Shown here piece by piece: positions 193 to 7,652 of a stretch of DNA of 7,652 nt; positions within the stretch are counted from its first letter, which is position 1; each line of letters starts with the position of its first letter. Source of the DNA: an uncultured Lentisphaeria bacterium. Its GTDB lineage: Bacteria; Verrucomicrobiota; Lentisphaeria; Victivallales; Victivallaceae. The translations under genes were made by a program, and so were the position numbers. The notes under the pieces are model-generated. The model was not told the origin of the DNA. It did no database searches and saw only the letters and a program-made list of their open reading frames with translations. Location: contig CAIJKT010000848.1 of assembly GCA_903821255.1 (NCBI GenBank), positions 1-7,652 of the forward strand, given 5' to 3'.

Positions 193-2319
193 TTACTTTT
201 TGGGGGCGGTGAAGTTTTCCAGCTTGAACTGGGGGAGCTTTTTGAAAACCTTATAATAGAGCAGATAGATGTTCTGCGACTGCGGGTCGGTCAGATAGGC
301 GGCTTCGGCCAGTTTTTCCGCCAGCGGCTGGTTGCGTTCCTTGTAACACTGCCAGGACAGTTGCGCGGTCTCCACTGCTTTGATCTTGTCGGCCGGGGAG
401 ATATATTTGAACACCCGGTATTTGACGGCGAGGGCATTCACCTCGCCGGGCGGGGTGATTTCATAGAAATACTGCATCTCCCTGGGGTGCGCATCCATAA
501 AGAACACTGTCGAGTTGACATTAACCTGTTTGGCGTTGGCGATGTAGCGGTACGAATAAGGATGCAGCGGCTCAAAGCAGGAGTTGCGGTTGAAAACCAC
601 ATACTCAACGCCGAAGTATTCGCAGAAGCCGGCGAATTGACGTTCGCTGCCGTGATACATCAGGTTGATATAGTCTTCGGCGATTTTACGGCTTGCGGGC
701 AGCTCGAATTTGGGCTGAACCACAATATTGGCCCCGCAGTAGGCTTTCAGCACCGGCGACAGCGTCATTTCCGACAGGACGGTATGGCCCTGAATGTGTC
801 CCTGTCTGAGCCATTTCACGAGGTCGGTCGTTTCCCGGAGGAAGTTCTTCGGATAGTTCCGGCGCTGTTCCCGGGTGGCTTCGGCTTCCAGGTAAATGGT
901 CAGCAGTGCGATAATGATCAACATTATCCGCAGCCTGTTCCGGGGGTTGCTCCGGTACAGATCGTGGAAAATCAGCGGCAGGGCCACGGCGGAGAAAACC
1001 CCGCAGAAGACGCTGAAACGCACCATGAAAATGTAAATCAGGAAGTAAACCGCGGTCAGCCACAGCGGCAGCAGCGAGCGGCTCAAACCGGTTTTCAGGT
1101 GTTTCCGGGTATTTCTGAAGCACAGTCCGGCGATGAACGCGATGCCCATGATCCACAGCGCGGCGGGAAACAGCAGTTTGGTCTGAGCCATGGAGGCGGA
1201 GTGCAGGGAAGGCGTCCAGAGAAATCTTGCGGTGAAGTTCAGTTTGTCCGGATCGGCCGGCTTGACGTTGCAGAAGGCTATTTTCGCCTTGATGAGCTCG
1301 TTGAAATGGCTGTAGTTTGCGGCATAGCCGGAGCTTGCCAGCTTCCAGACGCCGAAGAACACAACGGCGGATATAAGCAGCACGGCCAGCTTGCGCGACA
1401 GTTTGACCGAAGGCAGAAAGTACAGCGAAAAAAGCACCGGGAAGATAAACATGATCAGCGGCGAACAGATCAACTGATGGGCCCGGTTATACGGCACCAG
1501 CACGGCGGAAAGCAGCAGCGACGCGTACATGAACAGGTAGAATTGCAGTCTTTTCCGGGAAGTATTGCCGCCGGACATGACCCGGATGATTTCATAAACG
1601 CCCCACAGCAGGAAACACAACTGGCTCATGTCCCAGAAGGCGGTCGCGCAGAAAGTGCAGAACCCGGTCAGCAGCAGCGCCCGCACGGAGCGTCTGCGCA
1701 TGGCGAAAGCGCCGCAGGCAAACGCGGCGGCCAGGAACGGCATCGCGAAGTCTTCGCACAGGATATCCTGCCCCGTGTAGCGGGCGATGGCGGCCGGAGC
1801 GAAAGCGTAGATCAGCGCCCCGGCGGCGGCCCACGGCAGCGGGCAGCGCAGGAAATAAAGCCACAGGAAAATGAATCCGGCGGTCAGCGACGCCCACAGC
1901 CGGATGGTGTTGCGCATGAAGGCGGCTCCCGCCGGGTCGTCTTCATAGACCTTGTCCGCCGGCGACATGGACGGTTCGCCGAAAATGAATTTCGCGATGC
2001 GCCAGGAATAGCCGAGGAAGTATTCAATGCCCAGCGGCATCTGCTCGCTGACTTTCACTTTGTCCATTCCCGCCAGGGTGCGGTCATAGGTTGGGATGCC
2101 CTTGCCGCTGCCGACGTCTTTCGCAAAGCCGTACATGATGGAGCTTTCAACCCAGAACGGGTAGAAATCGGCTCCGGTCTGGGTTTTTATGCAGGCCAGT
2201 TCCCGGTTGCAGACGTAAGTCCGCACGGCAAACGCCAGCAGCACCGCCAGAACAAACAGCACCCAGGTTTTGGATAAGAAGGCTTTGATTTTCCGCATTG
2301 AGTCAGAGTATTCGCTCAT
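193..2319 (-). CDS. Polytopic membrane protein, putative STT3/GT-C-like glycosyltransferase
   Basis: This 708-residue protein has about 11-13 hydrophobic segments. One lies near residues 18-37, and the rest are clustered at about 140-330 and 382-478. A mostly soluble C-terminal domain covers about 480-708. The plan (one N-terminal helix, a large first external loop, a membrane bundle, then a soluble domain) is that of GT-C enzymes that use lipid-linked sugars, especially the STT3/AglB/PglB class. Supporting features are an acidic loop around G49-A-D51-F-Y, a G-I-P-T-Y-D stretch at 74-79, the R180-Y-T-G-Q...E189-D190 segment, and a soluble region at about 511-539 (TVLSEMTLSP...VVQPKFE) placed like the WWDYG region of STT3. 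The WWDYG motif itself is absent, so oligosaccharyltransferase activity is not established; another GT-C or O-antigen-ligase-like role is possible. The start overlaps the rpoN stop as ATGA, with AGGAAAGAG just upstream, which supports this start and translational coupling to rpoN. Confidence 0.75.
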   Translation of the reverse strand: MSEYSDSMRKIKAFLSKTWVLFVLAVLLAFAVRTYVCNRELACIKTQTGADFYPFWVESSIMYGFAKDVGSGKGIPTYDRTLAGMDKVKVSEQMPLGIEYFLGYSWRIAKFIFGEPSMSPADKVYEDDPAGAAFMRNTIRLWASLTAGFIFLWLYFLRCPLPWAAAGALIYAFAPAAIARYTGQDILCEDFAMPFLAAAFACGAFAMRRRSVRALLLTGFCTFCATAFWDMSQLCFLLWGVYEIIRVMSGGNTSRKRLQFYLFMYASLLLSAVLVPYNRAHQLICSPLIMFIFPVLFSLYFLPSVKLSRKLAVLLISAVVFFGVWKLASSGYAANYSHFNELIKAKIAFCNVKPADPDKLNFTARFLWTPSLHSASMAQTKLLFPAALWIMGIAFIAGLCFRNTRKHLKTGLSRSLLPLWLTAVYFLIYIFMVRFSVFCGVFSAVALPLIFHDLYRSNPRNRLRIMLIIIALLTIYLEAEATREQRRNYPKNFLRETTDLVKWLRQGHIQGHTVLSEMTLSPVLKAYCGANIVVQPKFELPASRKIAEDYINLMYHGSERQFAGFCEYFGVEYVVFNRNSCFEPLHPYSYRYIANAKQVNVNSTVFFMDAHPREMQYFYEITPPGEVNALAVKYRVFKYISPADKIKAVETAQLSWQCYKERNQPLAEKLAEAAYLTDPQSQNIYLLYYKVFKKLPQFKLENFTAPKK

Positions 2320-3767
2320 TTATACTCTTTCCTGAGGTTGGACGGCGGAATATCCATTTCTTCGCGGTACTTGGCGACGGTGCGCCTGGCGACCGAGAGT
2401 CCGGCCTTTTTGAGCATGGTGGAAAGCTTGCTGTCGGACAGCGGTTTTTCCCGGTCCTCTTTTAAGATAAAGTCGCGGATTTTCTCTTTAATGCTTTTTG
2501 AGGAGAGCACCTCGCCTTCGTCAGTCTGGTAGCCGCCGCTGAAGAAGAATTTGAATTCGAACAAGCCGACGGGGGTCTGGATGTACTTGTTGGCGATCGC
2601 CCGGCTGATGGTGGTTTCATGCAGCCCCAGTTTATCGGCGACCTGCTGCATGGTCAGCGGGCGCATGAATTCAATGCCTTTGTCCAGGAAATCATGCTGG
2701 GTGTCGACAATCACCTGGGCGATCCGCTGGATTGTGCTCTGCCGCTGCTCCAGGCTGCGGATCAGCATTTTGCCGCTGATGATCTTCTCCCGGATATAAT
2801 CCCTGGTCTCTTTCGGCGTATTGGGATCTTCCAGCAGATTCATATACATCCTGGATATCCGGAGGTGCGGTATCTGTTCGTCATTGAGGGTGATCTGGAA
2901 CTCCCCGTTGACCCGCTCGACTGAAAGTTCCGGTATGACAAACACCGTGTTGTCCGGAGAGACGGCCGACCCCGGATAAGGGTTCAGGTCTTTGATCTTT
3001 TCAATCATCCCGGTCAGGTCCTCAATGGAGATGCGCAGTGCCCTGGCGACTTGCGGCAGATGGTTTTTGCCGATATCCTCCAGATGGTATTTGACCAGCT
3101 TCAGAAGCCGCTTGTCCTGGTTTTTCCGCCGTTCCAGTTGAAGCAGCAGGCATTCTTTCAGATCCCGCGCCCCGATGCCGGGCGGTTCGAACGACTGAAC
3201 CAGTTTCAGGGCGTCGCCGGCCAGCCCGGCATCCGCGCTGGCGGCGGAAGCAATATCCGCCAGCGGCGTCCGCAGGTAGCCGCTTTCGTCAATGCTGCCG
3301 ATGATTGTTTCAGCAACGGCGGCGGTTTGAGGGTCGGCGTCGGACAGCCGCAACTGCTCCAGCATCTGTTCCTGAAGCGACGGCTGTTTGATCAGGGAAT
3401 TGAACATGAATTCCCGCTTTTCCTCATTTTCCTCGGAATAGTCCGCCGCGCTGTGCGCCGGCGGGAGATAGTCATGCCAGGTATCGGCCAGTTCCATCAG
3501 GTCGGAAATATCCCTGTCGTCGTCGCCTTCCGGCCCGACCGGCTCTTCATTGGCGCCTGACTTGAAGATTGCGTCTTCCGGGAGCGGTTCCTTGCTGGTC
3601 TTCACCTGCTCGATAACCGGATTGCGGTCCAGTTCATGATTGAGTTTGTCCTGCAGTTCCAGCAGCGGCGTCAGCAGCACTTCCAGCGATTGTATCTGCT
3701 GCGGGGCCAGTACCTGTTCCTGCCTGAGCTCCTGATTCTGACTCTGATTTAAATATTGATCCGCCAT
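2316..3767 (-). CDS. rpoN: RNA polymerase sigma-54 factor
   Basis: The gene encodes a complete sigma-54 of 483 residues, the usual family length. This sigma factor directs RNA polymerase to -24/-12 promoters and needs an AAA+ enhancer-binding protein for open-complex formation. Region I is at about 10-55 (glutamine- and leucine-rich, ending in the typical L-D-R-N-P-V-I-E). An acidic region II follows at about 60-110, including G-D-D-D-R-D at 81-86. The core-binding domain spans about 115-300, with a clear F-E-P-P-G-I-G-A-R-D-L-K-E-C motif at 193-206. The helix-turn-helix is at about 371-395 (M-Q-Q-V-A-D-K-L-G-L-H-E-T-T-I-S-R-A). The RpoN box ARRTVAKYR is intact at 460-468, so DNA recognition should be functional. 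The ATG at 3767 gives a normal N-terminus; the Shine-Dalgarno is weak (GGGCGA). The gene opposes the MBL gene across an AT-rich promoter region and is the first gene of the leftward unit. No sigma-54 activator is encoded in this window. Confidence 0.97.
   Translation of the reverse strand: MADQYLNQSQNQELRQEQVLAPQQIQSLEVLLTPLLELQDKLNHELDRNPVIEQVKTSKEPLPEDAIFKSGANEEPVGPEGDDDRDISDLMELADTWHDYLPPAHSAADYSEENEEKREFMFNSLIKQPSLQEQMLEQLRLSDADPQTAAVAETIIGSIDESGYLRTPLADIASAASADAGLAGDALKLVQSFEPPGIGARDLKECLLLQLERRKNQDKRLLKLVKYHLEDIGKNHLPQVARALRISIEDLTGMIEKIKDLNPYPGSAVSPDNTVFVIPELSVERVNGEFQITLNDEQIPHLRISRMYMNLLEDPNTPKETRDYIREKIISGKMLIRSLEQRQSTIQRIAQVIVDTQHDFLDKGIEFMRPLTMQQVADKLGLHETTISRAIANKYIQTPVGLFEFKFFFSGGYQTDEGEVLSSKSIKEKIRDFILKEDREKPLSDSKLSTMLKKAGLSVARRTVAKYREEMDIPPSNLRKEYK
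2325..2333 (-). promoter_or_regulatory. Ribosome binding site for the membrane-protein gene
   Basis: On the minus strand AGGAAAGAG precedes the ATG at 2319 by about 5-8 bases, within the last codons of rpoN. It supports the chosen start and re-initiation at the ATGA overlap. Confidence 0.55.
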
Positions 3768-3954: not shown

Positions 3955-4758
3955 ATGACAATCGGTATAACTGCGCTGGGAAGCGGCAGCAGAGGCAATG
4001 CTTTTGTGATTCATTCGCCTGACGCCTCCATTCTGATTGACGCCGGTTTTTCACGCAAGGAACTGCTTGCCCGCATGGCGGCGTCCGGAGTGGTTCCGGA
4101 ACAGATCAGGGCGCTGCTGGTGACTCACGAACATGAGGATCATGTCCGCGGGTGCAGGCTGTTCAGCAATCAATTTGACATTCCGTCATACATGACGTCC
4201 AGGACCATGGACTATCTGGAAAAGCGGGAGACGCTTTCAAACCGGGTGCTGGTGTTTGCGCCGGGCGAATTCTTTGAAGTTGCCGGCTTCCGGATATTGC
4301 CGTTCGCCGTTCAGCACGACGCCATCGATCCGGTGGGGTTTGTCATTTCCAAAAACGGGCGTTCGATAGCATTGGCGACAGACCTGGGGGCGGTCAACGG
4401 CCTCACCCGGCAGCGGCTTTACGACTGCGACATTCTGGTGCTTGAAAGCAATTATGATCAGGAAATGCTCAGGAATTCCCAGCGGCAGCTTCACCTGAAA
4501 AGGCGGATCATGGGGCGCAACGGGCATTTAAACAATATGGATACGCTGAATGCCCTGCCGGAGCTGATCACCGAGCGGACGTCCGCCCTGTTTCTGGTGC
4601 ATGTCAGTTCCGAATGCAACACTTATGAACTGGTCAGGGAACTTGCGCGGCAGAAATTGCATGAAATGCGCAGGCAGGATATATTTCTGCAGGTTGTCGA
4701 GCAGTCGGTTCCGGTTCCCACCTACTGGCTGGGAACGGCCGGCAGTCTTGAAATATAA
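3955..4758 (+). CDS. Metallo-beta-lactamase-fold hydrolase, WalJ/YycJ type
   Basis: This is a 267-residue cytosolic MBL-fold protein of the WalJ/YycJ group, close to the family's usual length of about 260. The N-terminal G-S-G-S-R-G-N (9-15) and I-D-A-G (28-31) are family signatures. The metal-binding THEHEDH motif supplies H58, H60, D62 and H63. Further likely ligands or active-site residues are H121, D143 (A-T-D-L-G), E164-S-N-Y-D168, H191 (N-G-H-L-N-N) and H216 (L-V-H-V-S-S-E-C-N). All expected motifs are present, so it should be an active dinuclear zinc (or manganese) hydrolase. Family members are linked to nucleic-acid processing or repair; in Firmicutes WalJ sits in the walRK operon and affects coordination of cell-wall metabolism and division. 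The substrate here is unknown. The start follows a purine-rich but weak site (GAGAAAGAG). The kinase gene begins 26 bp after the stop, so the two are probably co-transcribed. Confidence 0.92.
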   Translation: MTIGITALGSGSRGNAFVIHSPDASILIDAGFSRKELLARMAASGVVPEQIRALLVTHEHEDHVRGCRLFSNQFDIPSYMTSRTMDYLEKRETLSNRVLVFAPGEFFEVAGFRILPFAVQHDAIDPVGFVISKNGRSIALATDLGAVNGLTRQRLYDCDILVLESNYDQEMLRNSQRQLHLKRRIMGRNGHLNNMDTLNALPELITERTSALFLVHVSSECNTYELVRELARQKLHEMRRQDIFLQVVEQSVPVPTYWLGTAGSLEI

Positions 4759-4784: not shown

Positions 4785-6512
4785 ATGGACGAAGCAGTTG
4801 ACAACAAAAATACAATCATATGCGACAATGCCCCTGCCGTAACCCAGTCGTCGGGGCACGACAGTCCGCCGGGCGCGCTGAAAGTTTCATGTCACTCCTG
4901 CCTCCAGAAACTTGACGTTTCCGACCTTGAACCGTTCTCGCATTTTTCATGTCCCTCCTGCGGCGCCGATATGATTGCGCCGAAATGGTTCGGCAATTAT
5001 CTGCTGGAGGAGCAATGCGGGCAGGGCGGGATGGCCAATGTCTACCGCGCGCTTGATTTGACCCTTGACCGCGAAGTTGCCATTAAAGTGCTGAAAGATG
5101 AAATATCCCGGCTGGAACATTCCGCCAGCCTCTTTCTGCATGAAGCCAGAATCGCGGCGGCGCTTAATCATTACGGCATTATCCCCATTTACTCCTGCGG
5201 GGAATTCGAAAACCATCCGTTTTTTGTCATGCAGTTCATGGGCAACGGCTCGCTGGAACATCAGATCCTCATGCGGCAGCAGATTCCGGTTGACAGAGTA
5301 TTGCGCTGGATGATTGACATCGCCGAAGGACTGGACAGCGCCAGGCGGCACGGCATCATTCATCATGATGTCAAGCCGGGCAATATCCTGCTGGATTCGG
5401 ACGGCAACGTGAAAATCGGCGATTTCGGCATTGCCCATGCGATTTTTGACAACCGGTCCAGCCAGTTGGTGGAAGTCACCGGCAGTTGGGGGAGCCCGCA
5501 TTATGTCAGTCCGGAAAAACTTGAGGAAGGCAAAGAGGACTTTCCGGGGGATATTTTCAGCCTCGGAGCCACTTTCTATGAATTGCTGACCGGCATCGCG
5601 CCGTTTGATTCTTCAGAACAGGAGGAGATGCTGAAAATGCGGCGGGAAAGCGCGTTCACCCCTGTAAATGAACTGCGGAGCGACGTGACGCCGGCGCTGG
5701 CGTCGCTTATCCGGCGGATGCTGGCGTATGAGCCGCTGGAGCGTCCCGGCTATCGCGAGATCATCCGGGAATTGAACAGTGTTTTGAAGGTAATCTCGCC
5801 CCATAAGGAAGATCATAAACGGAAAATTATCGCTGCTGATATCCCGTTTTATTTGCAGATAAAATATTATGTGATCGCGGTGCTGTGTTTGATCACGATC
5901 ATTCCCTGCGGCATGATTATTTATAACAATTCCAGGAAGGCGGCAAAAACAATTCCGGAGAAAATCAACAACGCCGATCTCCTGTCTTCCGTTTCTGCCG
6001 CTCTGGCTTCGGGAGATTCCGCGCACGCCGCTTCAATTGCCGCGTTTGAGTTCGAAAATGTCAAATCCGCGGCTAAGGTCAGGCGGCAGGCGGCAATGGT
6101 AACTGCTTTATGCGCTTATCTTAATAATGACGATCAGGCCGCGGATAAATGTGCGGCCGTATCGCAGCGTCTGGCGGCTGCCGGAGTTCCGGCAGCGGAC
6201 AAGTTCAAAATAATTATTGATTTTCTAGCCAATCCGGCTCTTTCCGGAAAGTATCTCACAGATAATATCCCGGCCTCGGAGACGGAGGCATGGAATGTGG
6301 CCAGCTTCGCATTATTCGTGAAAAATCTGTATTCACATGCATCCAGGCAGGAATTGACGAAGAATTTGACTGAATTGCAGAACAATCTGTCAACTGCCGC
6401 TGCCGATTCCTGGCCCCGCAGGGCATTGGCGGTCCGCATCCCGGTGTACCGTGAATGTATCATAAACGGAAAAATTCCAAATGAAAATATAGAACCAATC
6501 TTTTCCCGGTGA
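4785..6512 (+). CDS. Transmembrane Ser/Thr protein kinase with N-terminal zinc ribbon
   Basis: This 575-residue Hanks-type kinase phosphorylates Ser/Thr on cytoplasmic targets. An N-terminal zinc ribbon comes first (C36-x2-C39 and C56-x2-C59). The kinase domain spans about 70-335: glycine loop G79-Q-G81-G-M-A84-N-V-Y, V-A-I-K101, helix-C E120, catalytic loop H193-H-D195-V-K197-P-G-N200, D213-F-G, S242-P-E, D256-I-F-S-L-G, and E319-R320-P. All catalytic residues are present, so it should be active. The arginine of HRD is histidine (H194), making it a non-RD kinase that may not need activation-loop phosphorylation. One membrane helix (about 361-381) follows, then an alanine-rich, probably helical C-terminal region of about 190 residues (382-575). 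By the usual topology this region is extracytoplasmic and may sense a ligand or partner; it has no PASTA repeats and may be a TPR-like helical fold. The gene follows the MBL gene by 26 bp and precedes the sensor-kinase-like gene by 76 bp. Confidence 0.95.
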   Translation: MDEAVDNKNTIICDNAPAVTQSSGHDSPPGALKVSCHSCLQKLDVSDLEPFSHFSCPSCGADMIAPKWFGNYLLEEQCGQGGMANVYRALDLTLDREVAIKVLKDEISRLEHSASLFLHEARIAAALNHYGIIPIYSCGEFENHPFFVMQFMGNGSLEHQILMRQQIPVDRVLRWMIDIAEGLDSARRHGIIHHDVKPGNILLDSDGNVKIGDFGIAHAIFDNRSSQLVEVTGSWGSPHYVSPEKLEEGKEDFPGDIFSLGATFYELLTGIAPFDSSEQEEMLKMRRESAFTPVNELRSDVTPALASLIRRMLAYEPLERPGYREIIRELNSVLKVISPHKEDHKRKIIAADIPFYLQIKYYVIAVLCLITIIPCGMIIYNNSRKAAKTIPEKINNADLLSSVSAALASGDSAHAASIAAFEFENVKSAAKVRRQAAMVTALCAYLNNDDQAADKCAAVSQRLAAAGVPAADKFKIIIDFLANPALSGKYLTDNIPASETEAWNVASFALFVKNLYSHASRQELTKNLTELQNNLSTAAADSWPRRALAVRIPVYRECIINGKIPNENIEPIFSR

Positions 6513-6588: not shown

Positions 6589-7652
6589 ATGAAGATTGCC
6601 AAAAAGTATGTTTTATACCTTACAGGACTTTTTATATTTCTGCTGCTGCTGATCTCGCTGCTTTTTATTTATGGCGAAGAAATGATGGGCGTGCAGCAGC
6701 AGAGGGAAAGAAACAAAAAAAACCTTCCGGCTATTTATCAGAAAAAACTGGAGGACTTCTACTACCGGGAAAAAATGGTCGTGGTGGTGGTATTTTTCAG
6801 TATTACCGCCGCCGGCTTCCTCTATATGATATATTTGATGTTGCATTTTTCCCGTAATATGGTGAAACCGCTTTCTTCCGCTGTCCAGTTCGCCAATACC
6901 CTGGCCGGCGGCCAGTTTCCGCCGCCGCTCCCTGTTCCGCCGCGGAGCGATTTCGAGATAGACCGGCTGATTAAGACGCTTAATTACCTCAGGGACCGCC
7001 TTTTTCGTTATACGCATAAATTGAAGAAGAGCCAGGAGCGTGAAAAGAAAGCACGGGAAAGCGCCGAAACGGTGAACGATATGAAATCGCAGTTTCTGAT
7101 CCGGCTTTCGCCGGAACTCCGGACTCCGCTGAATTCGATTATCGGTTATGCGGAAATAATCCAGAATGACATCAAAAACGGTCTCTACGACAAGTCCCTG
7201 GACAGAAAGATCAACGGGATCATGCGCAATGCTCTTTCCCTGAATCTGCAGGTTGCTGATATGCTGAAGATATCCGAAATGGACTCCCGTAAAGACGCGG
7301 TAAACTCAGGGGAATTCAATACTGCCGAGTTTATGCGCGAGCTGGTTGTCCATAATTCTTTTCTGCAGCACCAGGAAAATATTGCAATCCAGAACAATTG
7401 CTCTCAGGATGTTCCGGAATACCTCAAAACAGATAAAAATATTCTCTCCGGAATTCTAAGTATTCTGATCAATGCCATTTCGAAAGTTTCCGGAGACGGC
7501 GAAGTGATTTCATGCGGCTGTGCCCGTTCTTCAGATAAAATCATCTTCTGGGTCAGGGACAGCAAAAAGTCCGCGCCCGGAGACCGTCTGGCCGATTTGT
7601 TCAACCGTTACCACAATGAAAACTCTCAAAAGCGCCTGGAATTAACTAACAG
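6589..7652 (+). CDS. Sensor histidine kinase-like protein with degenerate catalytic motifs (partial)
   Basis: The first 354 codons are visible; the window ends inside the gene. There are two membrane helices (about 7-28 and 63-87) with a short 35-residue outer loop between them. A HAMP-like linker (about 88-140, with P94) and a charged coiled coil (about 141-163) follow. The DHp helix reads F169-L-I-R-L-S-P175-E-L-R-T-P-L-N-S-I-I-G-Y-A-E: a perfect H-box context except that the phosphoacceptor histidine is P175 (CCG at 7111-7113). The ATPase-like region keeps an N-box core (L-I-N295-A) and an F-box-like L-F-N-R-Y (337-341). G1, normally D-x-G-x-G, is D324-S-K-K-S, and the apparent G2 position (Q-K-R-L-E-L, 347-352) lacks its glycines. 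The protein should therefore be unable to autophosphorylate. The reading frame is open throughout, so it looks like a maintained pseudokinase, not a decayed gene. It is encoded after the Ser/Thr kinase, so a regulatory, scaffold or substrate role is plausible but inferred. Confidence 0.88.
   Translation, partial: MKIAKKYVLYLTGLFIFLLLLISLLFIYGEEMMGVQQQRERNKKNLPAIYQKKLEDFYYREKMVVVVVFFSITAAGFLYMIYLMLHFSRNMVKPLSSAVQFANTLAGGQFPPPLPVPPRSDFEIDRLIKTLNYLRDRLFRYTHKLKKSQEREKKARESAETVNDMKSQFLIRLSPELRTPLNSIIGYAEIIQNDIKNGLYDKSLDRKINGIMRNALSLNLQVADMLKISEMDSRKDAVNSGEFNTAEFMRELVVHNSFLQHQENIAIQNNCSQDVPEYLKTDKNILSGILSILINAISKVSGDGEVISCGCARSSDKIIFWVRDSKKSAPGDRLADLFNRYHNENSQKRLELTN

Follow-up and report, generated by a model that had tools for sequence, protein, structure and literature searches.

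A 7,652-nucleotide stretch of DNA (the window) from an uncultured Lentisphaeria bacterium (assembly GCA_903821255.1, contig CAIJKT010000848.1) ends in a gene encoding a histidine kinase-like protein with proline at the position of the phospho-acceptor His. Judged from its sequence, the gene product is a membrane-anchored pseudo-hybrid histidine kinase, a variant of the pseudo-histidine kinases. The gene contains the following features.

6589..7652, + strand: gene of a pseudo-hybrid histidine kinase, with 354 of its roughly 569 codons present; the open reading frame runs out at the window end
6847..7002, + strand: HAMP domain, residues 87-138 (Pfam PF00672, E 4.3e-6, above cut-off)
7081..7287, + strand: HisKA/DHp domain, residues 165-233 (Pfam PF00512, E 2.4e-9, above cut-off)
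7111..7113, + strand: CCG, encoding Pro175 at the phospho-acceptor His position; His in 0 of 45 relatives
7429..7482, + strand: degenerate N box (TDKNILSGILSILINAIS), in which Ile292 and Ala296 replace the two Asn of canonical kinases
7558..7572, + strand: degenerate G1 box, DSKKS for DxGxG; DxGxG is present in 17/17 controls and 0/45 relatives

Two hydrophobic helices, judged by eye, form the N-terminus of the window protein ahead of the HAMP and HisKA domains. The database protein P0016 is its continuation (124/124 identity over the last 124 window residues; 569 amino acids in total) and supplies a C-terminal receiver domain that lies outside the window. Full-length close relatives have the same architecture, and a HisKA domain was recognized by profile in 24 of 27 family members at E<=1. 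The profile match is shared with catalytic HisKA histidine kinases (HKs), but the acceptor His, the N box and the G1 box of those enzymes are not kept in the window protein. It thus has the HK fold without the key catalytic residues, retained by selection, as pseudo-histidine kinases do.

The translation around the acceptor site (codon 175) reads ...QFLIRLS-P-ELRTPLNSIIGY... and bears out a sequence-only reading of the window, in which a CCG proline at 7111-7113 was said to replace the invariant His. That His to Pro needs a two-base change is true from either His codon. The H-box motif quoted in that reading matches on its flanks; its span, 7090-7143, covers QFLIRLSPELRTPLNSII, and the final G-Y lies just beyond the end. 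The His residues of the window protein (86, 143, 255, 261 and 342) all fall outside the DHp domain, so a substitute acceptor His within the domain was rejected. Twelve of the 45 relatives likewise have none there, and the other 33 contain one to three His somewhere in the DHp stretch, never at the acceptor position. In a published survey, HisKA domains without the His account for 0.9% (722 of 76,471) of the total (PMC12632262).

Relatives were collected by profile search. In a sample of 387 genomes from the phylum, 31 had a match at E<=1e-40; in the class, 41 of the 197 genomes searched did, among them all 31 from the phylum set. Four more divergent relatives, from genomes that lack a match at this level, were found beside a metallo-beta-lactamase (MBL) gene, giving 45 relatives. 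The acceptor residue is Pro in 25, Leu in five, Ile in four, Cys in four, Ala in two, and Ser, Thr, Arg, Lys and Trp in one each. The alignment of orthologues proposed in the sequence-only reading therefore has no His at this position, whereas His is present in 17/17 canonical kinases of the same alignment, which were hand-picked from profile hits and are not a random draw. In P0019, a more distant database relative, the acceptor residue is Gln and the Asp of the receiver is retained.

Because most of the proteins that seeded the search profile carry Pro, two checks for selection bias were made. The same profile also matches other kinases in the three close genomes G001-G003 (25 lesser hits), and the three that were read all have the His. 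Among the 156 class genomes without a 1e-40 match, 36 MBL neighbourhoods yielded four extra HK-like genes, none with the His; the other 32 contained nothing HK-like at E<=1e-5, and several of these regions end at contig ends (e.g., L075, L094 and L099). Three loci (L085, L086 and L087) encode pseudo-kinases of about 800 residues directly after the MBL gene, with no Ser/Thr kinase between. Their acceptor residue is Cys or Ala, and the receiver Asp is kept.

The identical CCG codon is present in close relatives from three metagenome-assembled genome (MAG) contigs. The Pro codons of the 25 Pro-bearing relatives are CCG (18), CCT (4) and CCC (3), and this variation at the third base indicates that Pro is maintained at the protein level. 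Sequencing error, already considered unlikely from the two-base change, is rejected as the source of Pro175 because of the three MAG contigs and the synonymous codons.

The ATP-binding (CA) domain is also degenerate. The second, key Asn of the N box is found in 17/17 controls versus 1/44 relatives with a letter there (G417), and the first in 16/17 controls versus 2/44 relatives. Asn295 of the window protein lies one residue off the N-box Asn column in an ungapped alignment. The only relative whose N box is complete, L117 (G417), carries Arg as its acceptor residue and has not lost the receiver Asp.

In the receiver domain of P0016 the acceptor Asp is replaced by Ser, and in this the protein differs from hybrid kinases with a working receiver. 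The Asp is kept in 15 of 43 readable relatives, six of which keep all five receiver residues. It is absent from 25/25 Pro-bearing relatives and kept in 15/18 readable non-Pro relatives. Pseudo-receivers make up about 6% of bacterial receivers in the same survey (PMC12632262). The family is old and its losses are graded: the His and the G1 box are lost everywhere, and the receiver Asp was lost together with the fixation of Pro. The sequence-only reading had caught one of the three losses; the degeneracy of the ATP-binding and receiver domains and a conserved Ser/Thr kinase neighbour go beyond it.

The close relatives from the three MAGs are 92, 90 and 88% identical to the window protein and have open frames. 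Over 354 codons, the ratios of nonsynonymous to synonymous substitution rates (dN/dS) between the window gene and these relatives are 0.054, 0.058 and 0.066, and those of the remaining three pairs of the four genes are 0.062-0.103. By part, the values are 0.027-0.071 for the DHp domain and 0.019-0.064 for the CA part, where dS is partly saturated. The neighbouring genes gave 0.061-0.087 (rpoN), 0.052-0.098 (MBL), 0.071-0.116 (Dpy19-like) and 0.076-0.145 (Ser/Thr kinase). Constraint on the pseudo-kinase protein is comparable to that on the neighbouring genes. Selection for the fold, proposed in the sequence-only reading together with a dN/dS comparison, agrees with the purifying selection found over the six pairs (0.054-0.103); the loss of phosphotransfer that it proposed is likewise favoured by the lack of His at the acceptor position in 45 relatives and of an alternative His in the window DHp domain.

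In a tree built without the acceptor column, the family is split from the 17 canonical kinases by one branch (support 100/99). A second branch, with support 99/98, sets off the Pro group, whose 28 rows include one member with Ser and one with Thr. Degenerate proteins that evolve fast can be drawn together in trees; the shared gene order makes a common origin more likely than convergence. By these comparisons the loss state is old and under purifying selection.

The following genes precede the pseudo-kinase gene in the window.

193-2319, - strand: bacterial Dpy-19 family protein (PF10034, E 9.8e-18)
2316..3767, - strand: rpoN (sigma-54; Pfam Sigma54 domains), divergent neighbour often kept with the row
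3955..4758, + strand: MBL-fold hydrolase, first gene of the three-gene row by gene order (Pfam PF12706, E 1.3e-22)
4785..6512, + strand: Ser/Thr protein kinase gene, directly upstream of the pseudo-kinase (Pfam PF00069, E 8.2e-47; VAIK, HHDVKPGN and DFG intact)

The window order is therefore rpoN (-), then the MBL-fold hydrolase, the Ser/Thr kinase and the pseudo-kinase (all +). It was compared at 46 loci (45 genomes and the window). The MBL gene lies in the same region at 33 loci, with the Ser/Thr kinase between in 27 of those. At two more loci, L003 and the weakly matching L058, the kinase adjoins the pseudo-kinase where the contig is cut, three loci are cut by contig ends, and at eight the pseudo-kinase is located elsewhere; in all eight of these the MBL-kinase pair stands at another place. 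The Asp residues of the HRD and DFG motifs are both kept in 30 of 38 readable Ser/Thr kinases, a count that leaves out L058, which could not be aligned. Kinases with lost catalytic motifs are found at L042, L052, L057, L118, L119, L120, L121 and L129, and also at L074, L075, L093, L096 and, in part, L072 and L073, which come from genomes without a pseudo-HK match. As the Ser/Thr kinase beside the MBL gene lost its motifs in several lineages, one module can hold two kinds of pseudo-kinase. A likeness of the MBL gene to WalJ/YycJ was dropped, as neither NCBIfam nor PDB matches pointed to that name.

Phosphotransfer by the window protein is very unlikely because the acceptor His, the G1 box and the receiver Asp are missing. 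We infer that the protein would be unable to autophosphorylate or to relay phosphate, and a mode of action free of phosphotransfer is very probable from the residues lost. What selection retains is the HAMP-DHp-CA-receiver body. In the proposed mode of action, the protein would form a membrane dimer that switches conformation and offers a platform for docking. Changes at the membrane and HAMP domain would shift the DHp-CA-receiver unit, which would bind partner proteins and modulate them, and the likeliest bound partner would be the Ser/Thr kinase encoded in its gene row. As a whole, the reading we regard as probable is that of a membrane pseudo-hybrid kinase which works through docking and coupled conformational changes, its most plausible partner being that Ser/Thr kinase. 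The assignment of this kinase as the main partner is tentative, on the basis of gene order and of a correlation between evolutionary distances.

Distances of the Ser/Thr kinase and the pseudo-kinase correlate beyond the MBL distance (residual r 0.45 over 26 loci, the window and L058 being left out; none of 2000 permutations reached this value), although this correlation is uncorrected for shared lineage-wide rate changes, which counts against the docking reading. Several other observations weigh in the same direction. One relative, G417, retains the whole N box, and in six relatives none of the five receiver residues is lost. The MBL-kinase pair occurs in many genomes without a pseudo-kinase nearby. 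At 7 of 46 loci no Ser/Thr kinase was found next to the MBL gene, with no further search of those genomes, and its HRD and/or DFG Asp is lost in 8 of 38 readable cases; its activity is therefore not required everywhere. Together, loci where it is missing beside the MBL gene and loci where it is dead make up 15 of the 45 that were readable; it is thus either not the sole partner everywhere or has a role there that is also structural. The branch length of the pseudo-kinase does not differ between lineages with a dead (8) and an intact (29) Ser/Thr kinase (p 0.36; P0003, P0019 and G332 left out).

The main rival to docking with the Ser/Thr kinase is a role like that of alphaproteobacterial DivL, a phospho-sensor and kinase modulator. 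The dead DHp-CA core would bind a phosphorylated response regulator or an active HK in trans and shift the kinase/phosphatase balance, and the receiver, where intact, may be phosphorylated by another kinase. According to a study of DivL, it has a HisKA/DHp-CA fold, its acceptor His is replaced family-wide (by Tyr, or Ala in one), it works without kinase activity, and its core has been turned into a sensor of DivK~P (PMC4211667). DivL is among the Foldseek matches of the window family, with a similar predicted fold; the PDB matches of the family are filled by receiver matches and are uninformative on the DHp-CA part. Such a role would fit the relatives with an intact receiver (Asp kept in 15/43) and the presence of the other profile-matched kinases in G001-G003. 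In contrast, DivL has PAS domains and apparently intact N, G1, F and G2 boxes (PMC4211667), whereas in the window family the N and G1 boxes are gone, HAMP and receiver domains are present, and the gene usually stands beside that of a Ser/Thr kinase. With the receiver Asp lost in the window's clade and a Ser/Thr kinase as the recurrent neighbour, a DivL-like role is rather unlikely.

The other alternatives are weaker. The E/DxxT/N motif of the DHp domain has a role in HisKA phosphatases, and a remnant that had kept phosphatase but no kinase activity would remove phosphate from a response regulator. The residue after the acceptor position is E/D in 44/45 relatives, and the window protein has PELRT there, but T/N at +4 is found in only 18/45, which makes the motif weak as a family function; with the N and G1 boxes also lost, this reading is very improbable. 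Ser/Thr (or other) kinase activity of the degenerate domain itself has a precedent alone, in vitro reports for the plant subfamily II ethylene receptors (PMC4730734). The G1 box is gone in 45/45 relatives and the key N-box Asn in 43/44, which argues against nucleotide-dependent catalysis and makes this activity very improbable. A decaying pseudogene or recent lineage-specific loss could account for motif loss in three domains, but neither frameshifts nor internal stops occur among the relatives' matches listed, dN/dS is 0.05-0.10, the Pro codons are synonymous, and the whole family stands on one supported branch; decay is hardly credible.

Several known systems resemble the window family in part. 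The bacterial HKs described as inactive in the searchable literature are DivL and RcsD. RcsD, according to a preprint, is a membrane protein of hybrid-kinase build with an inactive kinase domain, but has a phosphate-passing Hpt domain (PMC13317618); no Hpt match was found in the full-length relative P0003 at E<=1. ShkA and CikA also contain a receiver fold without key residues within a hybrid kinase, but their kinase autophosphorylates and is inhibited by the pseudo-receiver (PMC12632262), whereas the kinase part of the window family is degenerate too. The subfamily II ethylene receptors have a degenerate HK domain, some isoforms with a receiver, and the receptors signal via the associated Ser/Thr kinase CTR1 rather than mainly by phosphotransfer (PMC4730734); for the window family, association means gene order and distance correlation. 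Pfam matches to an ethylene-binding domain or to GAF are absent at E<=1 from both P0003 and the window protein, and the comparison, an analogy, concerns mode and not descent. A bacterial counterpart of the ethylene receptor-CTR1 pair is a possible but doubtful extension of this analogy: phosphotransfer would have been lost early in the class, the membrane co-receptor would gate the operon-encoded Ser/Thr kinase, and catalysis by either kinase would be dispensable while the genes persist.

No paper on the window family was found in the literature searched, most subscription papers being outside its coverage. A domain survey including one Lentisphaerae genome makes no mention of a missing His in the parts covered (PMC4558063). 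The family links an inactive two-component receptor with the gene of a Ser/Thr kinase and provides a natural series for asking what the HK fold does without phosphate. It also bears on whether receptors in bacteria can give up phosphorelay and come under the control of Ser/Thr kinases instead.

The Dpy-19-like gene adjoins rpoN in the window and in several relatives. The Dpy-19 family is best known for animal C-mannosyltransferases. An open frame of 714 codons (133-2277, + strand) lies antisense to this gene; codon composition most likely accounts for it.
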